Of a stretch of 20,757 bases of DNA, positions 613 through 12,649 are shown in pieces (position 1 is the stretch's first letter; each line of letters starts with the position of its first letter). This stretch comes from Cochliopodium minus (Eukaryota > Discosea > Himatismenida > Cochliopodiidae): the NCBI GenBank assembly GCA_024220525.1, contig JAMYWO010000067.1:147922-168678 (forward strand), written 5' to 3'. Both the position numbers and the translations under genes were made by a program. The notes below the pieces were generated by a model, which had not been told where the DNA came from, ran no database searches, and worked only from the letters and a program-made list of their open reading frames with translations.

Positions 613-3432
613 ATGTCGATATTAGAAAAAAAGGAAAAAATAGATAAAGAAAATTGGGGAGAGAAAATAGAGGGGAAAATATACGAAGTACTTGGTTTCT
701 TTGCACAAGAAAGAGAAATAGAAAAGAAAATGAAAAGCAGGGAGATGATCATGTTTAACGAAGGAGAAAAAAAAGAAATGGTAGAAAAAACTTTTTCTTT
801 TTTTTCTTTTTTTTTAACGGAACATTTTGAAATAATTTCCCAACATTTTTACTTGGAAACTCTTTACCTCTTTTCCCTTTTTTTAAATTCTATGGATGAG
901 CTCCTCTTTCTTCCGTTTTATTTCTCCTCTTCCCTCCCCTTTCTATTTTACTTTCCTTCTCCCTCTCTTTCTCCTTCTTTCTCCACTCCCTTTTCTTCTC
1001 TCTCAAATTCTGATCCCTCTACTTCTAATTTCGTCTCCTCAACTCCTCCCATTCCCTCTCTTTCTACTGACATTTCTTCTCTTAAAAAAACAAATAAAAG
1101 CAATAAAAAAGAAACAACAATTCAACAAGAAAAAGGAGGAGAACTTGATGCAAATCACAAAAAAATAAAAGAAAAAGAAAGAAAGAATAAAAAAGAAAAT
1201 AAAGAGAAAAAAAGAGAAAAACAAGAGAAAGAAGAGAAATCTGAAATAAAGGAAACAGAAAAAGAGGAAGAGAAAATAGGAGAGAAGAAAATGGGAGGAA
1301 TACAAATGATGAATGTGCTTATTGATTATTCTGTCAAAGAAAAATACTCCTTATCTTATTTTCACTCTTTTTACTCTTTTTTTTTATTTTTTATTTCCCT
1401 CTTTTCTTCTTTTTCTCCCCTTTCTCTTCTCCCCTTTTCTACTTCTTCATTTATTACGAACAATATGAACAATGATACAAACAACACAAACAATACAACT
1501 AACAATACAACTAACAATACAACCAAAAATACAAGTAGGATTAAAACGACAAACAAGATAAACATAAGTAAAAGTGAAGATGTAAAGAAAAGTAAAAAGG
1601 AAAGGGTAACGGAAAGTAAAAATGAAAATAAAAAAGGAAGGGAAAGGGAGAGGGAAAGGGAGAAAATAGAAGAAATGTTGATAAATAATAAAAAAAAGGA
1701 AAAAGAAGAGATCTATCCCATTTCTTTGTCTCCTTTTAGATGGGAATTGGAAAATAAAAATTTTTATTTATTTCTTTGCAATCCCAATTCCCCTCTTTCC
1801 AACCCTCTGCCTTCTTTTTCTTCTTTACCTTTTTCTTCAACTCATTCTTCAACCTTTTCTTCGTTATCTTCTTCTTTTTCAAAATTTCCATCCAAAGTTT
1901 TTTCTCCACATCATTCTTTTTTTCTCCCAAAAACCTCCACAACATCTTCGTTGACACCCTCTTCCTCCACAATCTCTTCTTCCACAAAATCCTCTATTTT
2001 TAATAAAAATGAAAAAATAAAGTACAATACTGGTTCCTCTTCTCTCAACCCCTGCAACTCCCACATTAATCCTCTATTCAATGATGACATACCTTTTTTT
2101 TCACCAAAAGTATTCTCTCTTTACAATAATAACAAAATTGACATAAATAAAAAGAATGAGAAAGAAGAAAGAAAGAAAGGAGATAATATTTTGGAAAATA
2201 TTTCTCTAATTCAAAGGATTTGTTATAAAATGAATAAGAAAATAGAAAATATGATTTTAGAAAATGAAATTAAAACAAAATATTCTCAAACTTTTATGAG
2301 AGAAGATAAAAAAACTTTTTCTCTTTTTTCCTCCTTTTTCTCTCACTTCTCATCAGAATTAGAAAAAAGAATTGATTTCTCTTTTTTCTTTGAAAAATTT
2401 AACTCTCAAACTTCTTCTCATTCACAAAAACCATTATTTGAGTTTATAATTTCAAAAATTTCACCCATCCCCTCATTAAAAAAAAGAAAAAATTCAAAAC
2501 AAGAGTTCTACGATCAATTAAACTCAAATAATACCAACATCAAAACTAACAACAACAAAATTAATTTGAAAAAAGGAGAATTGAAAAACGAAAATGAGAA
2601 AGAAATATTTAAAGAAGAATCTGATATCAACATTCTTATTGAAAAATATCAAATGAATGTTATTTTCGAAAATATGAGAATAGAAGAAAACAGTATTACA
2701 TTGTGCAACCTCATTTACCACTTGTGTTCTTTGATTTTAAGTGTAGAAAATTTTTTAAATTACAAAAACTCAAAACTTTATCACATAGCCGAAAAGATAT
2801 CTCAAATACCAAAAAAAATTTTAAATCTCTTAAATTTATCTTCTAAATCTCATGTCATAAACATCTTCTCAAAAAGAACCAGTAAGTTTAATTTTTTGAG
2901 TGAGAAAGATAAAAAAGAAAACATTGATTATATAAATCTTTTTTTCACTACTCTCATTTCAACATGTTTGGGTGAAAGTGGTTATTATAGATCATCTTCT
3001 TCTATCATTTATGTTTCTTTTCAACTTGAAAACTATTGTGAATTGTTCTTATCCTTCTTTCAAAATGATTTGGATTCTTTTGATAATAATGTTGTTGATA
3101 TTTTTTTCAAAAATATAATTTCACTAGAAGAAAGCTACAAAGAGTTTGATTGCTTCCCTTCTTCTTTTGTTTCTCTCAAAAAAGTTTTGTTTCTTTTTTC
3201 TTCACAATGTAAAAATCCACTTAAAGAAATACAACAACAAAATCATTTTGGTGAAACAGAATTATCAACTATTTATTCTTTGTTGTTAAAGTTCTCTCCA
3301 GAAAATCTGGAAATTGAAACAAAAAAATTGTACCATGCATCTCAAAGATATTTAAGACTTCAACTTTCAAAAAACACAAACGAAAAATTTATGAATAACA
3401 ATGTATTTTTTGAGAATATAAATCAAAATTAA
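613..3432 (+). CDS. Intronless 939-aa low-complexity protein, function unknown
   Basis: One uninterrupted frame runs from ATG 613 to TAA 3430-3432. I do not recognise it. Residues about 1-60 are Lys/Glu-rich. About 60-520 alternates Ser/Phe/Pro/Leu-rich blocks (about 96-157, 250-277, 390-460) with Lys/Glu/Arg/Asn-rich blocks (about 158-235, 280-370). The hydrophobic blocks reflect DNA that is nearly all pyrimidine, so membrane segments should not be inferred. From about residue 680 to the end the composition becomes ordinary and looks like a folded, probably helical domain (segments such as LCNLIYHLCSLILSVENFL). The gene has no introns although most neighbours have several. Its stop lies 29 bases from the convergent PRP31 stop. 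It is probably a real gene because the frame stays open over 2.8 kb of AT-rich DNA and the C-terminus looks protein-like. Confidence 0.75.
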   Translation: MSILEKKEKIDKENWGEKIEGKIYEVLGFFAQEREIEKKMKSREMIMFNEGEKKEMVEKTFSFFSFFLTEHFEIISQHFYLETLYLFSLFLNSMDELLFLPFYFSSSLPFLFYFPSPSLSPSFSTPFSSLSNSDPSTSNFVSSTPPIPSLSTDISSLKKTNKSNKKETTIQQEKGGELDANHKKIKEKERKNKKENKEKKREKQEKEEKSEIKETEKEEEKIGEKKMGGIQMMNVLIDYSVKEKYSLSYFHSFYSFFLFFISLFSSFSPLSLLPFSTSSFITNNMNNDTNNTNNTTNNTTNNTTKNTSRIKTTNKINISKSEDVKKSKKERVTESKNENKKGREREREREKIEEMLINNKKKEKEEIYPISLSPFRWELENKNFYLFLCNPNSPLSNPLPSFSSLPFSSTHSSTFSSLSSSFSKFPSKVFSPHHSFFLPKTSTTSSLTPSSSTISSSTKSSIFNKNEKIKYNTGSSSLNPCNSHINPLFNDDIPFFSPKVFSLYNNNKIDINKKNEKEERKKGDNILENISLIQRICYKMNKKIENMILENEIKTKYSQTFMREDKKTFSLFSSFFSHFSSELEKRIDFSFFFEKFNSQTSSHSQKPLFEFIISKISPIPSLKKRKNSKQEFYDQLNSNNTNIKTNNNKINLKKGELKNENEKEIFKEESDINILIEKYQMNVIFENMRIEENSITLCNLIYHLCSLILSVENFLNYKNSKLYHIAEKISQIPKKILNLLNLSSKSHVINIFSKRTSKFNFLSEKDKKENIDYINLFFTTLISTCLGESGYYRSSSSIIYVSFQLENYCELFLSFFQNDLDSFDNNVVDIFFKNIISLEESYKEFDCFPSSFVSLKKVLFLFSSQCKNPLKEIQQQNHFGETELSTIYSLLLKFSPENLEIETKKLYHASQRYLRLQLSKNTNEKFMNNNVFFENINQN
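899..2180 (+). repeat. Alternating polypyrimidine and polypurine blocks inside the 939-aa ORF
   Basis: Pyrimidine-rich blocks at about 899-1084, 1361-1445 and 1781-1990 alternate with purine- or A-rich blocks at about 1085-1305, 1450-1720 and 2140-2180. The purest purine run is about 1631-1666. These are compositional tracts, not exact repeats. Confidence 0.75.
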
Positions 3433-3461: not shown

Positions 3462-5081
3462 TTATTTATTATTTTTTGGGAGAGGAGGGACAAAATCGCC
3501 CTCTTTTTTGATTTGAGGAGGAGGGTTCGAGTCATCCTTGTTCTTTTGGTTGACAAGAAGAAAATTTCCAGTTTTGGTGAAATACTTGGAAGAGAGGGAG
3601 GACAAAGAAACTTCAGCCAAAGGAGAAGGTCCAGTGGTGGAAATAAAAGTCATACCATTAGGATCATCCAAAGTGAGAGTAGATTTGGTACCAGAAGTTA
3701 AAGTTTTGAGGCCAGTTTTATAACCAAGTTTGGTACGAATACCAGTGGCAGTGATCATGCTTTGTTGTTGGTCTTTGTTTTTTTTGTTGGTGACTTTTTT
3801 GATTATATTTTTTTCTTGAGCACTGATACGAACAGTGGATCCTTTCATTGCTTGACCCAACATACCAAACCCAGAAGATTCTTCCTCAGCGTATTGTTCA
3901 TCACCTTCCTCGGGATTAAAAGACATTCGGTTCATGTGTTTTCTTACATCGGTTTGTTCAACGAGCTGTTTTTTTTTCCTGGCAACTTTTCCTCCTCTCT
4001 TGTTTTTTCTTTTACTGTCTGGTGCTGCGAGAGGTTTTGGTTTTTTAGGAGGAGGAGGTTCTTGCCATTTGCTGATTTTGTTGAGGATTTCTTCTTTGTA
4101 TTTTTTTCCGTGAAGATCCTTTTCTTTTTTGTTTGTTGTGTTGAAAGAATCGAATCTGGCAGCCAACGCAACCCTCCCACAAATATTCCTCAATGCTTTG
4201 GTAAGATGTTGTTTAGGGCAAGAGACAATGATGGGAGATTGAAGGATATAACCATGATGTTGAAAGGATGTTTTTTTGTTTGACATTCCAAGCAAATTCT
4301 TTCTGTTTACACCTAATGATTGAATCGCATTCATTGGTAGTTTGGAGAGAGCCAATAAACTTCCTGAAGAACAAATCAAATTGGCAGCTACTTTAGAACC
4401 CACCAATGTGGTCAAATTGGGTGCCAAATACTCCATTTTCCCCTCAACAAATTTCAACAATTTGTTTTTTTCTTCTTCGAGATAAAGAGTTTCTTTACAA
4501 GCCAACATTACACTTTCTAATTCTTCTTCTGTCAATTTTCTTCCTTTGGTGGTGGTTGCAGCAACAGTGATAACCAAGAGAATAGAGTTTTCTAGAAGAT
4601 CATTCAGTGCCACTCTCGTCAAATCTGTTTCATTTCCTATTTTCATTACTACTTTAATGTAGGTTATTCTATTTGTTTCCAATTCGGCTAATTCTTTAAA
4701 TTTAATAGAATATATTTCTTTGATGTAAGTATATAAATCATTTATATCATCTATTAATTTTACAATCATTTCATTTGTATCTGATATCTTTTCAAATTCT
4801 TTTGTACTTCCTTTCAATTCTGGTATTTCAATATCCTTATTCAATTTATTAGGGATTAAATAAAAGTTTTGAGAAGTACTTACTTTCATTAATTTAATAA
4901 AGTTTTCATTATTTCTGATATTAGTTATATCTGTTATTTTCTTCAACAATAAATTCTCTTTTATTTCATTTGTTGTTGTTTTTTGATCCTTCACTTCATT
5001 TTCTTTTTCTTCCTCTTCATCTTCTTCATCAAAATCATTCATAAATTCATCTGCGAGTGTATTTGCTATTGGTTGATCCAT
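3462..5081 (-). CDS. PRP31: PRP31, U4/U6 snRNP splicing factor
   Basis: This protein (539 aa, single exon) is the PRP31/PRPF31 homologue. In the spliceosome it binds the U4 snRNA 5' stem-loop with the 15.5K protein and links U4/U6 to U5 in the tri-snRNP. Visible parts are an acidic N-terminus (DEEDEEEEKENE), a NOSIC region at about residues 105-160, and a Nop domain at about 200-330 with the hallmark NLTTLVGSKVAANL and then QHHGYILQSP. The PRP31 C-terminal domain follows at about 345-470, containing a basic stretch with KRGGKVARKKKQ and later GIRTKLGYKTGLKT. The length fits the family (human is about 500 aa). ATG 5079-5081 is followed by the family-like acidic leader, so the start is well placed. 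The gene is convergent with the unknown gene at 613 and divergent from TMEM208. Confidence 0.96.
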   Translation of the reverse strand: MDQPIANTLADEFMNDFDEEDEEEEKENEVKDQKTTTNEIKENLLLKKITDITNIRNNENFIKLMKVSTSQNFYLIPNKLNKDIEIPELKGSTKEFEKISDTNEMIVKLIDDINDLYTYIKEIYSIKFKELAELETNRITYIKVVMKIGNETDLTRVALNDLLENSILLVITVAATTTKGRKLTEEELESVMLACKETLYLEEEKNKLLKFVEGKMEYLAPNLTTLVGSKVAANLICSSGSLLALSKLPMNAIQSLGVNRKNLLGMSNKKTSFQHHGYILQSPIIVSCPKQHLTKALRNICGRVALAARFDSFNTTNKKEKDLHGKKYKEEILNKISKWQEPPPPKKPKPLAAPDSKRKNKRGGKVARKKKQLVEQTDVRKHMNRMSFNPEEGDEQYAEEESSGFGMLGQAMKGSTVRISAQEKNIIKKVTNKKNKDQQQSMITATGIRTKLGYKTGLKTLTSGTKSTLTLDDPNGMTFISTTGPSPLAEVSLSSLSSKYFTKTGNFLLVNQKNKDDSNPPPQIKKEGDFVPPLPKNNK

Positions 5082-7784: not shown

Positions 7785-9200
7785 ATGGACAATAACAACA
7801 CAATAGTTTTGAGAATTGAAACAGATATAATTCTTAAATTAGATAACAAGAACCAATTATTTTCATATTTGGATACATTATATGAATACGGAAATAAATT
7901 ATTTGTTGCATTTGTAATAAATAACTCTCTTTTGGGATTGCTACAACAAATCAAGAAAATCAAACAAAGAGGAGACCTAAAACAAGTGAATGAAGAATAT
8001 AATCATTTATTAACCTTGTTGGATGTAAAATATGAATTCAACCAAGAAAAAGAATGGAAAGAATTGGAGACAATCTATTCCAAATTTGAAGAACTTACTG
8101 ATAAAAGCACAGAGAAAATCCTTGGAAACATAATCCATCTTTTCAATATGATTTTGTTTCATTTCATCCAAAGCAAAGAGAAATGCTCAATAATAAATGT
8201 GAAAGAAATAAACAATCAAAATAATAATCCTCCAAACAAAATAACGATCTCCATAATCGAAAAATTTAATTCAAATCTCTTTGAAGAAACATTAGAATTA
8301 GCACATACATTGAAAGCAAGCAGATATGAGAGTCTTTCTTTCCAATATGCCATTTTCACATCGCCATTCCTTTCTTCCAATATCTTCTCTTCTCTTTTCA
8401 ATACTCCTTTATCTCGTAATAGTGATTCATTGAATAACAGCATTGATAATTTGAATCTGGAAAAGAATGATAATCCTCTCAAAACCAACGATCCCCTCAA
8501 TAACAATGAAAATCCCCTTTCTTCTTCTCCTTCCATTGATAATATCAAACAATCTTCTTCATTATCTTATACTCACCTTTCTCATCTTTCTCCAACTTAT
8601 GATCCTTTTGGTAAGAAAAAATACCAACATTCTTTTTTTTTATTTAAAAATATGGACATTCATTTGCCATTATTTTTCATTGAGACATTCTTTCATTATT
8701 TAAGATATCAACATTTATTATTATTAGTTTTTATATTATTATTATTATTTTTTATTATTTTTTTAGAATTTTTGATTATCTTTCTTTTTGATAGTTGTGA
8801 AGTTCTTGAATTACGACGAAGCATTAGAATTATTCAATTATCCATCTCCATTCATTTCACTAAAGTAAAAAAAAAAGCATCAAATTAAATTTACTCTTAT
8901 CATTAATTTTATTAACTATTTTTTTGTGTTAAAATTTTTATTTATTTTAATTGTTTTTATTTTTATCAATGATTATTTTACTATAAATTTATATTTAATT
9001 GATTGTTTATTTTTTTTAAATTTTTAATTTTATTGTTTTATTGAATTTAAAAATTTTTTTTTATTTTTTATAATTTTGAAAAGGACGATAAGGAAAATGA
9101 AGGAAACAGGAGCAGAGATGAGATTGTCGATCATATCTCCATTTCTAAACTCACCATCCCTCTCAAAAGAAGAACTGAAAAACTCTACAACGATATCAAA
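7785..9200 (+). other. Degenerate aspartate kinase domain with Asn/Ser-rich insert (part of LysAC)
   Basis: These exons cover residues 1 to about 338. The alignment to aspartate kinase rests on four points: the start (TIVLRIETDI against the usual IVLKFGGTSV), the following helix-rich part, the NYDEALELFNYPSPFISLKTIRK segment (against YDEAQE...GAKVLHPR), and the downstream ACT domains. The nucleotide-binding KFGGTS, the GRGGSDTSA loop and the TDVPG motif are all absent. In their place, residues about 200-270 are Asn/Ser/Pro-rich. I infer that phosphotransfer is lost while a structural role may remain. Confidence 0.75.
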
Positions 9201-12200
9201 CAAAAAGAAGAAATACGAGAGACAACCAAAAGCAGTTGTTTTAAACAATAAAATCATTTTCATTTCACTGAAAGTAAAAGAAGAAGCAGAGTTTTTAAAA
9301 GCACTTCCTCTCTTTCTTCTTTTTTTCTCTGAAAAAGAAATAAGCCTTCTTTCTTCTTCTGTTTCTCAAAATTGTATCACCGTGGTGGTATCGAGCATTT
9401 TCTTTCCTTTTCATTCTCCTCTTTTTAACCTCTTACACTCTTCTTTTTCTTCTCCTTCCTTTAAACTTTCCATCAAAAAAAAGTATTCTCTCATCTCTTT
9501 GGTAGGAAACAAAATCAAAAACATCTATCATAACTTGGGTAACCCTCTCCCTTCTCCCTCCCTCCTCCCTTTTTAATTTACACTCTTTTTATTTTCAATT
9601 TTTTATTTTATTTATTTTTTTAACTTTTTTTTTTATAACATTTTCTTCAATTTTTATTTTTTCATTTTTGTTAATGATATAAAATATTTAATTTATATTT
9701 CATTTTTAATATTTTCTTCATTTTTTTTAAAATATTTTTTGATTTCAAATAAACTTTTTTTATTTAATATTTATAATTTATTAATTTTTTAATATTTAAC
9801 ATTTTTTTTTAAATTATATATTGTTTAAAAAAAAAGCGCACGCATTTGATTTTTTCCAACATCACAAGATTCATTTTTCATCACAACCAAACAAAAACTT
9901 GATTCAGTTTATAGTAAGCAATAACAAAGCTTTTTCATTTTTGAATGAAATACATCATTCTTTGTTTTATGATCGCCCCGATGATGGTTTGTTTGGAGAC
10001 ACTTTGTCTTTGTTTCTCGGAAATTTCCAACACAAACAAAAAAAAGAAAAATGGTGGTACAACAAAAAAGACCTTTTATTGCAACTTTTCAACAACAATG
10101 AAAACAACAATCTCAACAATAACAATAACAATCTTATCGAGTAAAAATTTTTTAATTATTTTTTAATTTTAATTTTTTGATTTTTTTAAAATTTTTTGTT
10201 TTTTTTTTCATTTTTATTTTATTTTATACTTTATATTTTTTGTTTTTTTTTTTTTTTTCATTGATTACTTTTATTTTTCATTTTGGAAGACTCATTTTTT
10301 GTTTTAAATTTTTTGTCATTATTTTTAATTTTCTATTTTAAATTATTTATTGTAATGATTTCATTTTTATTGATGAATCATTTTTTTAATCATTTTTATT
10401 TAAAATTAATCATTATTTTTAATATTTATTAATCGTTAACATTATAATTTTTAAATTGAGCAATTATTTATTTATAAATCATTATTTTTAATTAATTATT
10501 TATTTATGTATCATTATTAATATTTTTTTTTGATTTTTTTTAATTAAAAATTACTTTAATATACATTATTTTTTTTTTGATTATTATTTTTTGTAAAGGG
10601 AGAAGGGAGAGAAGAAATTCATTCCAACATCTTTCCAAAATGTGTCAAACATTCCTTCAAATGACAGTTTCTACGTGTACGATAGAGAAACCATAAGACA
10701 AAACGCCAACTTGATCAAATCTGAATTAAATGGTCTCAATAAAATCTTCTTCGCAATCAAAGCAAATTCCAACATTGAAATCTTAAAAATATTACACCAA
10801 GAAGGTTTAAAAAATACTTTGTATTATATTTATATTTTTTATTCATACTTTTTATTTATTTATTTATATTTTTTATTTATTATATTTATACTTTTTATTT
10901 ATTTTTTATTTTTCATTTTTTATTTTTTTTATTTTTTATTTTTTAAAAGGAATTGGCTTCGAATGTGTTTCACCAGGGGAGTTGACTTTGATCAGAAATT
11001 TGTTTCCAGAATTGGGAAAAGACAAAATTCTTTTCACACCCAACTTTGCTTCCAAAAAAGAATATCTTTTTGGTTTCAAAATGAATGTTACCGTTACCGT
11101 TGATAATCTCTACATCCTAGAAAATTGGAGCGAACTTTTCAAAGGTAAATACTTTTATTCATTATTTAATTAAATTAATAAAAAATATTTTTTAATATTT
11201 TTTAAAAATTTTTTATTTTTTTAATATTTTTATTTTTTTTAAATTATTCTGTTTTATTTAGCTTCAATTTTCTTTTTTTAAATTAATTTTTTTCATTTTT
11301 TTTTATTTTTAAATAATTTACATTTGGGCAGATAAGGAGATTATGATCAGGTTGGACACAGAGATAGGACAGGGACATCACAAACACGTTCAAACAGCAG
11401 GAAAAGAATCAAAGTTTGGTATTGCACTCAACTTGTTAGATAAAGTTGCAAAACTCGCAGAAAATATTCAAACAAACATCATTGGTTTTCATTGTCACGT
11501 TGGAAGGTTACCCTTTTTCATTCATTCACTCATTCTATTATCTTTTTAATCATATTTCCTTCTTATATTCTTTATAATCTTTTATGATCGATATTAATCA
11601 ATATATAAAAATGATATTATGTTAATTTGGACATTGATCAATTATATATAGTATCTTAAATTGGGATTAAAATTGATCCAAATTATATGGCAGAAATTAA
11701 ATTCTCACAAAATCCCCCTATCCCTTTTAAATTTTTTTAAACAATAAAAATTACAGTGGTATTTTCGATCCTAATTCTTGGTACAACAATGCAAAGATCA
11801 TGCAAAAATACATCCACTTGTTTCCTAAGTTAAGAGTTATTGATTTAGGGTAAAAAAAAATACACAATGATAGAATACTTTCACTTTATTTCTTAACATT
11901 TTTTTTGTTCTTTTTGTTTTAAATTTATTTATGTTTTTGTTTTAAATTATTATTTATATTGTTTTGTTCAATATTATAACAATATTTAATTTTAATTAAG
12001 TTCTTTTTATTATGTTATTAATTTATTAATTTTTTTTTTTTTTTTTGAAAAAGAGGAGGGATTGGAGTGGATGCAGAGGGAAAAAAGGACTTTGATTTTA
12101 AAAGATTAAATTCCACATTGTTAAAATTCAAGGAGGAAAACAATGGAATGATCGAATTGTGGATGGAGCCTGGTCGTTACTTTGTTGCTCTTTCTGGTAT

Positions 12201-12649
12201 CGTTTTGTCAAAAGTTACTCAGTTAAAAGAAAAGAGTGGAGTTAAATGGATTGGTATTTCCACTGGTTTTAATACTTTGGTTCGGTAAATTTAATTTATT
12301 TTTATTTTATATTTTGATTTTTATCTTATTTTATTTTATTTTTATCTTTTAATTTCATTTTTTATTTTTTATTTTATTTTATATTTTGATCCTTTCTTTA
12401 TTTTTTAGTCCAATCCTTTATTCTGCTTTTCACCCTATTTTCAATCTTACTCGTATTGATGAACCATTTTCATATTATGCGGAAATAGTGGGGCCAATTT
12501 GTGAGACAGGGGATGTGTTTGGTCATTCAAGAAAGATACAAGACACCAAAGAAGGAGATATTCTTTTGATAGAGGAATGTGGTGCTTACGGATACAGCAT
12601 GTCCAGCTACTATAACTTAAGGGAGCCTGCTATTGAGATTTTGATCTAA
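7785..12649 (+). CDS. lysAC: LysAC-type fusion: degenerate aspartate kinase + ACT domains + diaminopimelate decarboxylase
   Basis: Ten exons (7785-8610, 8795-8864, 9084-9538, 9837-10140, 10599-10804, 10950-11144, 11332-11506, 11757-11849, 12054-12284, 12409-12649) join in frame to 931 aa. The domain order matches the bacterial fusion of aspartate kinase and diaminopimelate decarboxylase; the latter converts meso-diaminopimelate to lysine with PLP. Residues 1 to about 345 are kinase-derived but lack its motifs. ACT domains follow (about 349-545, with ISLVGNKIKNIYHNL). The decarboxylase (about 575-931) keeps FAIKAN (PLP Lys606), GFECVSPGE, HCHVGSG (739-745), GGG (775-777), EPGR (813-816), CETGD (Cys883) and GAYGYSMSSYYN. 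GTG 10642 is not a start, because the frame continues upstream into exon 4. No phase-0 introns occur. Bacterial origin is inferred from the domain order. Confidence 0.92.
10141..10598. other. LysAC intron 4, no gene content
   Basis: This is the longest intron in the window (458 bases). It is T-rich on the coding strand and ends TTTTTTGTAAAG. It separates the ACT-domain exon from the decarboxylase exons, so it lies close to the junction between the two fused enzymes. No coding or RNA feature is visible. Confidence 0.7.

Follow-up and report, generated by a model that had tools for sequence, protein, structure and literature searches.

Bifunctional proteins that join an aspartate kinase to a diaminopimelate (DAP) decarboxylase (LysAC) are known from bacteria including Legionella, Coxiella-like organisms, Xanthomonas, and Salinibacter. 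The subject of this report is a LysAC-type gene of Cochliopodium minus, located on a 20,757-nucleotide stretch of contig JAMYWO010000067.1 (GenBank assembly GCA_024220525.1, positions 147,922 to 168,678 of the forward strand), the whole of which is referred to as the window. The gene resembles bacterial LysAC in domain order, in the WW motif of the linker, and in ten of ten checked decarboxylase residues. It differs in being a eukaryotic gene with nine introns, low-complexity stretches, and a decayed kinase core from which the signatures are missing. The account favored here, which we hold to be probable, is that a LysAC gene was transferred horizontally, gained introns, lost its kinase, and may now serve, as an orphan meso-DAP decarboxylase, to salvage lysine from bacteria taken as food.

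Among eukaryotes, DAP decarboxylase has been reported for Dictyostelium, Polysphondylium, Capsaspora, and trypanosomatids, and DAP replaces lysine in the media of some trypanosomatids (PMC3846528). The statement in an earlier note on this DNA that most amoebae lack the enzyme therefore needs care. Symbiont-harboring trypanosomatids are described in the cited passages as having the final DAP-pathway enzyme without the steps that lead up to it (PMC3846528), and Cochliopodium minus resembles them in this respect; unlike the lone trypanosomatid decarboxylase, its gene is of the LysAC type and carries a kinase/ACT remnant. From gene type, and not from sequence comparison, we infer that the two transfers were separate. 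The lysAC gene of the choanoflagellate Salpingoeca rosetta, named diaminopimelate decarboxylase plus aspartate kinase, was a candidate transfer by one index and failed the second filter of the same study; unlike Cochliopodium minus, where neither was found, this species also has dapF and asd (PMC7971027). Oomycetes likewise hold bacterial LysAC-like relatives, since their aspartate kinase and decarboxylase genes cluster with bacterial LysAC, but these are separate genes within a DAP pathway in which that study found no epimerase (PMC2705460). DAP-pathway genes of Monosiga are attributed to bacteria or algae (PMC4046809), rumen protozoa are said to turn DAP into lysine (PMC7058926), and insect lysA and dapF complement symbionts (PMC4607527). 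Choanoflagellate lysAC, the oomycete relatives, and trypanosomatid DAP use are already published, and the Cochliopodium minus gene adds a variant. Among the matches listed from the open-licence literature, no report described a eukaryotic LysAC that is rich in introns, has a dead kinase, and belongs to a genome where no DAP pathway is detectable; nor did the matches listed include work on bacterivorous protists salvaging DAP, and this second negative is weak.

The ten exons of the gene (Table 1) join in frame to give 931 codons and a stop codon, with GT-AG borders at all nine introns. The guanine plus cytosine content is 5.5-21.6% in the introns versus 25-41% per codon position in the exons. 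Exon 1 has no stops in the coding frame versus 23 and 31 in the two other frames, and the chance of a 275-codon open frame at the intron stop rate was estimated at p ~2e-8. Stops enter the frame on retention of any one of seven introns; introns 1 and 5 are stop-free, but their lengths would shift the frame. The ten-exon, 931-residue gene of the earlier note was confirmed, and its nine GT-AG introns in a LysAC-type gene agree with the proposal that introns were gained after a bacterial transfer. Contamination was ruled out by these introns together with the eukaryotic neighbors, which Pfam identified.

Family assignment was performed using NCBIfam and Pfam. The top NCBIfam model for the 931 residues was NF006515 (bifunctional aspartate kinase/diaminopimelate decarboxylase, LysAC), which matched in two stretches with a whole-protein score of 516.8 bits, under its curated cut-off of 802. 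Residues 1-563 alone scored 64.3 bits (E 5.7e-18) and were matched over 277-541. The order of kinase C-terminal end, ACT region, linker, and decarboxylase is that of NF006515, and the bacterial fusion order read in the earlier note is thus upheld. The second NCBIfam model was TIGR01048 (lysA) with 308.1 bits, above its equivalog cut-off of 297.9. Both decarboxylase domains exceeded their Pfam cut-offs and an alanine-racemase-fold match lay under its cut-off; Pfam AA_kinase gave no match in the 931 residues at E up to 10, within the filters of HMMER. The aspartate kinase model TIGR00657 matched only residues 280-494 (18.9 bits versus a cut-off of 208.7). In a plasmid collection 270 records matched, headed by LysAC of Legionella adelaidensis (38.8% over query residues 439-931) and then by that of Xanthomonas sacchari (39.4% over 577-924). 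Genome contigs were scanned as well: 373 pattern matches yielded 202 relatives, and the best 80 of the 202 entered the set behind the trees. Taken as sequence evidence, these matches support a bacterial LysAC origin of the gene. A viral origin was rejected: a viral-contig scan with 132 pattern matches contained no relative, and 54 records of a phage collection matched the Legionella protein, none covering 80% of the query among the matches listed.

Conservation was then expressed by near-invariant columns, defined as those in which 95% or more of 75 bacterial LysAC rows share a single letter. These 75 were taken from 81 extracted proteins, of which six were dropped because KFGG was missing from their first 80 residues or because they ran to 900 residues or more. 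The Cochliopodium minus protein keeps 84 of 91 such columns in the decarboxylase (82-89 in the six lowest bacterial rows), 3 of 3 in the linker (2-3), 21 of 58 in the kinase-end/ACT region (53-56), and only 8 of 46 in the kinase core (43-45); the bacterial values are partly built in, because the same rows defined the columns, and the contrast among the window's own parts is unaffected. The KFGGTS and GRGGSD signatures have both been lost, and the WW motif is retained between the ACT region and the decarboxylase. Ten checked decarboxylase residues, among them K606, E813, R816, C883, E884, and Y912, are shared unchanged by the window protein and all 75 bacterial rows; we take the ten to be PLP-binding (pyridoxal 5'-phosphate-binding), substrate-binding, or catalytic. 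Judged by these columns, the decarboxylase half is under strong constraint and the kinase half is without catalytic signatures, and the protein is not expected to act as an aspartate kinase.

The kinase-derived region of the earlier note was borne out from residue 276 onward, where the protein is collinear with LysAC. Against 35 bacterial rows, hhalign aligned residues 276-551 clearly (P 5e-14, over 277-537). Residues 1-275 had no significant similarity of their own to these rows (P 0.5) and showed one weak hhalign stretch, at the collinear place. A kinase origin is suggested for this part by position only.

The bacterial loci were inspected for the same signatures. By the script rule, 81 of 82 loci gave an open reading frame, with KFGG[TS] in 76 and G[RK]GGS in 74 of the 81. 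Eight motif exceptions were re-read: six have both motifs, some as variants and one across a frame change, while L007 has the first kinase motif only and L048 the second only. Contig ends truncate loci L050 and L069, which stood outside the re-read set. No decayed kinase was demonstrated among the bacterial rows, L007, L048, L050, and L069 being unsettled. At L018 (Coxiella sp. metagenome-assembled genome (MAG) NORP135), at about 2502-3092, KFGGTS and the rest of LysAC lie in different frames, owing to an assembly error or a mutation.

The 24 best-listed LysAC rows share 44-51% identity with the decarboxylase part, and five stand-alone LysA proteins share 29-34%. In trees constructed without plant or other eukaryotic rows, it fell on the LysAC side with 98-100 support versus stand-alone LysA. 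Plant LysA proteins scored 128 and 126 bits by phmmer. In a quick tree (67 of 87 rows), the gene grouped with rows L006 and L027 with a support of 89 by the Shimodaira-Hasegawa-like approximate likelihood-ratio test (SH-aLRT), and in a careful tree (33 of 87 rows) it grouped with 16 Legionellales-type rows with support of 91/85; neither branch was starred. The Legionellales-type rows comprise Legionella, Coxiella-like organisms, and unclassified gammaproteobacterial MAGs, and their list was composed after the quick tree was seen. A tree holding the bacterial LysAC rows as one clade without the Cochliopodium minus gene, and so placing the gene just outside them, was not rejected by the approximately unbiased (AU) test (p-AU 0.076), and the branch of the gene is long. 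The nearest bacterial group would be Legionellales-type rather than Xanthomonas, with moderate support that is not decisive. A Legionellales-type donor is a lead and not a result, because the alternative was not rejected and because the branch is long. The LysAC origin proposed in the earlier note is supported; the Xanthomonas-type bacteria that it named as known holders of the fusion would not be the nearest group.

Other genes of the pathway were sought with profiles in the organism's own genome (44.65 Mb in 598 contigs), one exon at a time. In this search, Asd (PF02774), DapB (DapB_C, PF05173), and DapF (PF01678) were not found, and no aspartate kinase was present among the PF00696 places. 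These four places are two carbamate kinase-like, one isopentenyl phosphate kinase-like, and one archaeal UMP kinase-like, and supply of the kinase from elsewhere in the genome was rejected on this basis. The carbamate kinase-like exons also matched aspartate kinase models at 15-17 bits, far under cut-off, and the one TIGR00657 match in the genome (E 0.37) lay inside a carbamate kinase-like gene. PF00278 matched two places, the LysAC-type gene and one ornithine decarboxylase; in a PDB comparison the latter scored 112 bits with ornithine decarboxylase versus 26 with diaminopimelate decarboxylase. As a control, 70-residue pieces were compared with the Pfam cut-offs, which were exceeded by two of four pieces of the Legionella LysAC kinase and four of four pieces of Escherichia coli DapB, two of these four lying in the searched DapB_C domain. 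With PF01510, one Amidase_2 exon (L098, G000:C219:21933-22061) exceeded the cut-off at 39.1 bits. The gene around it seems to be split by introns and has a hydrophobic stretch in an upstream frame, and two further open frames tried there had no Pfam match. The gene is a candidate partner in wall digestion.

Two carbamate kinase-like genes by NCBIfam (L085 and L086, on G000:C113 and C54) have later frames that by eye resemble an isochorismatase-type hydrolase domain, and are perhaps fusions. At L088 (G000:C45:26675-26851) the best model was the archaeal-type UMP kinase TIGR02076 (36.4 bits, cut-off 158).

In the favored account, the sequence indicates that a bacterial LysAC gene entered the eukaryote's genome and gained nine introns. 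Its decarboxylase half has been retained under strong constraint, and its aspartate kinase half has lost the catalytic signatures. The loss of the role of the kinase half is attributed to the fact that no pathway using aspartyl phosphate was found in the organism. The ACT region and linker appear to have faded more slowly than the kinase core, and this remnant may be kept for folding, structure, oligomerization, or dimer contact; lysine sensing by it is unproven. The protein would be a PLP-dependent meso-DAP decarboxylase that functions in the absence of a DAP pathway of the host, supplied with meso-DAP from the wall peptides and free pool of digested bacteria, on which the organism is presumed to feed. 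Diaminopimelate decarboxylase removes the carboxyl group at the D-centre and releases L-lysine. In Cochliopodium minus, meso-DAP would bind the decarboxylase site through PLP on K606 and be converted to L-lysine and CO2. Precedents for such a use of DAP are the trypanosomatids (PMC3846528) and rumen protozoa (PMC7058926). If so, the gene would encode a eukaryotic enzyme of lysine formation that lost its fused partner to decay for want of a host pathway, and would be a clear case of what survives from a transferred bifunctional gene. It would make DAP salvage from prey bacteria testable in one organism, and would suggest that phagotrophs captured the last step to lysine repeatedly and independently.

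Several observations weigh against this account. The kinase remnant of the window itself escaped the exon-by-exon search, and strongly diverged pathway genes could for this reason be missed; its piece controls covered the kinase and DapB, with none for Asd or DapF. By NCBIfam alone, the ornithine decarboxylase exon matched lysA best (34.7 bits). In the same search neither NlpC/P60 (PF00877) nor LD-carboxypeptidase S66 (PF02016) was found, which leaves the route from wall peptide to free DAP unexplained. PF00701 gave three matches in two DHDPS-family genes, on C288 and C10. The C288 piece and the first C10 exon fit dapA best among NCBIfam models, far under cut-off; the second of the two C10 exons tried had no NCBIfam match; and in PDB the C288 piece matched neuraminate lyases and DapA alike. 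Either gene may thus still be a DapA. Finally, a decarboxylase standing alone could just as well act on behalf of a symbiont. One DHDPS-family exon on C10 (L091, G000:C10:303182-303331) is without the GTTGE motif usual in that family and has a TPR-like open frame upstream by eye.

A tentative extension, which we consider rather doubtful, would make the decayed kinase/ACT half a non-catalytic regulator responding to the state of lysine (a pseudo-aspartokinase) in a bacterivore that mines meso-DAP from prey walls, with a Legionellales-type enzyme acquired separately from those of trypanosomatids and social amoebae. Also unlikely is a DAP pathway divided between the host and a bacterial endosymbiont, in which the endosymbiont supplies meso-DAP and the decarboxylase carries out the final step. 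Such sharing has precedents in whiteflies, where lysA and dapF acquired from bacteria make up for what the symbiont Portiera lacks (PMC4607527), and in symbiont-harboring trypanosomatids, credited in the cited passages with only the last DAP-pathway gene (PMC3846528). The upstream genes were likewise not found in the searched Cochliopodium minus genome, but the closeness to Legionellales speaks, if anything, for past contact and not for a present symbiont.

A substrate shift of the decarboxylase to a different amino acid, such as ornithine or lysine, with a role in polyamine metabolism or elsewhere, is less likely again. Ornithine, lysine, and citrylornithine decarboxylases share the fold, as seen in the similarity hit list, and an orphan enzyme would be free to drift; on the other hand, the lysA equivalog cut-off is exceeded, the near-invariant decarboxylase columns are largely kept, and the genome has a separate ornithine decarboxylase.

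Two transcripts divided at intron 4, one from a decaying kinase/ACT gene and one from a separate decarboxylase gene, are very improbable. This intron is the longest of the gene and adjoins a poly-Asn stretch. Exon 5 cannot begin an ATG-started gene, because its frame contains no ATG between the stop at 10594 and the exon end, and two separate genes were rejected on this ground; moreover, splice sites and phase agree across the intron, and the WW linker, which precedes the decarboxylase in LysAC, sits in exon 4. The single fused gene of the earlier note was retained on these grounds.

A working bifunctional enzyme within a complete host DAP pathway, as that note had implied, is scarcely credible given the lost signatures, the few kinase columns kept, and Asd, DapB, and DapF not found in the searched genome, even though residues 276-931 are collinear with LysAC, DHDPS-family genes are present, and Monosiga reportedly acquired DAP-pathway genes (PMC4046809).

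Table 1. Exons of the LysAC-type gene and other features, in positions of the window.
Feature	Position	Strand	Content
Exon 1, aa 1-275	7785..8610	+	Place of kinase core, decayed; low-complexity stretch; KFGGTS and GRGGSD both missing
Exon 2, aa 276-298	8795..8864	+	Kinase C-terminal end; NYDEALE vs DYDEAQE in LysAC
Exon 3, aa 299-450	9084..9538	+	Kinase end and first ACT-like segment, diverged
Exon 4, aa 451-551	9837..10140	+	Second ACT-like segment; WW linker motif aa 523-524; poly-Asn stretch
Intron 4, 458 bases	10141..10598	+	GT-AG; possible split point between two genes
Exon 5, aa 552-620	10599..10804	+	Decarboxylase start; PLP lysine K606, codon 10759-10761
Exon 6, aa 621-685	10950..11144	+	Decarboxylase barrel
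Exon 7, aa 686-743	11332..11506	+	Decarboxylase barrel including H741
Exon 8, aa 744-774	11757..11849	+	Decarboxylase barrel
Exon 9, aa 775-851	12054..12284	+	GGG loop; EPGR motif
Exon 10, aa 852-931 and stop	12409..12649	+	C-terminal sheet domain: R852, Y856, C883-E884, Y912
C883 codon	12500-12502	+	Exon 10
Prp31	3462-5081	-	Pfam

Elsewhere in the window, positions 613-3432 (+) hold a single open frame of 939 residues, of low complexity, rich in Lys, Glu, Ser, and Asn, and without a Pfam match. Besides Prp31, the neighbors identified by Pfam are the complex III 14-kDa subunit, ATG8, and a synaptobrevin-type SNARE, in which synaptobrevin exceeded its cut-off and a longin match lay under its cut-off.

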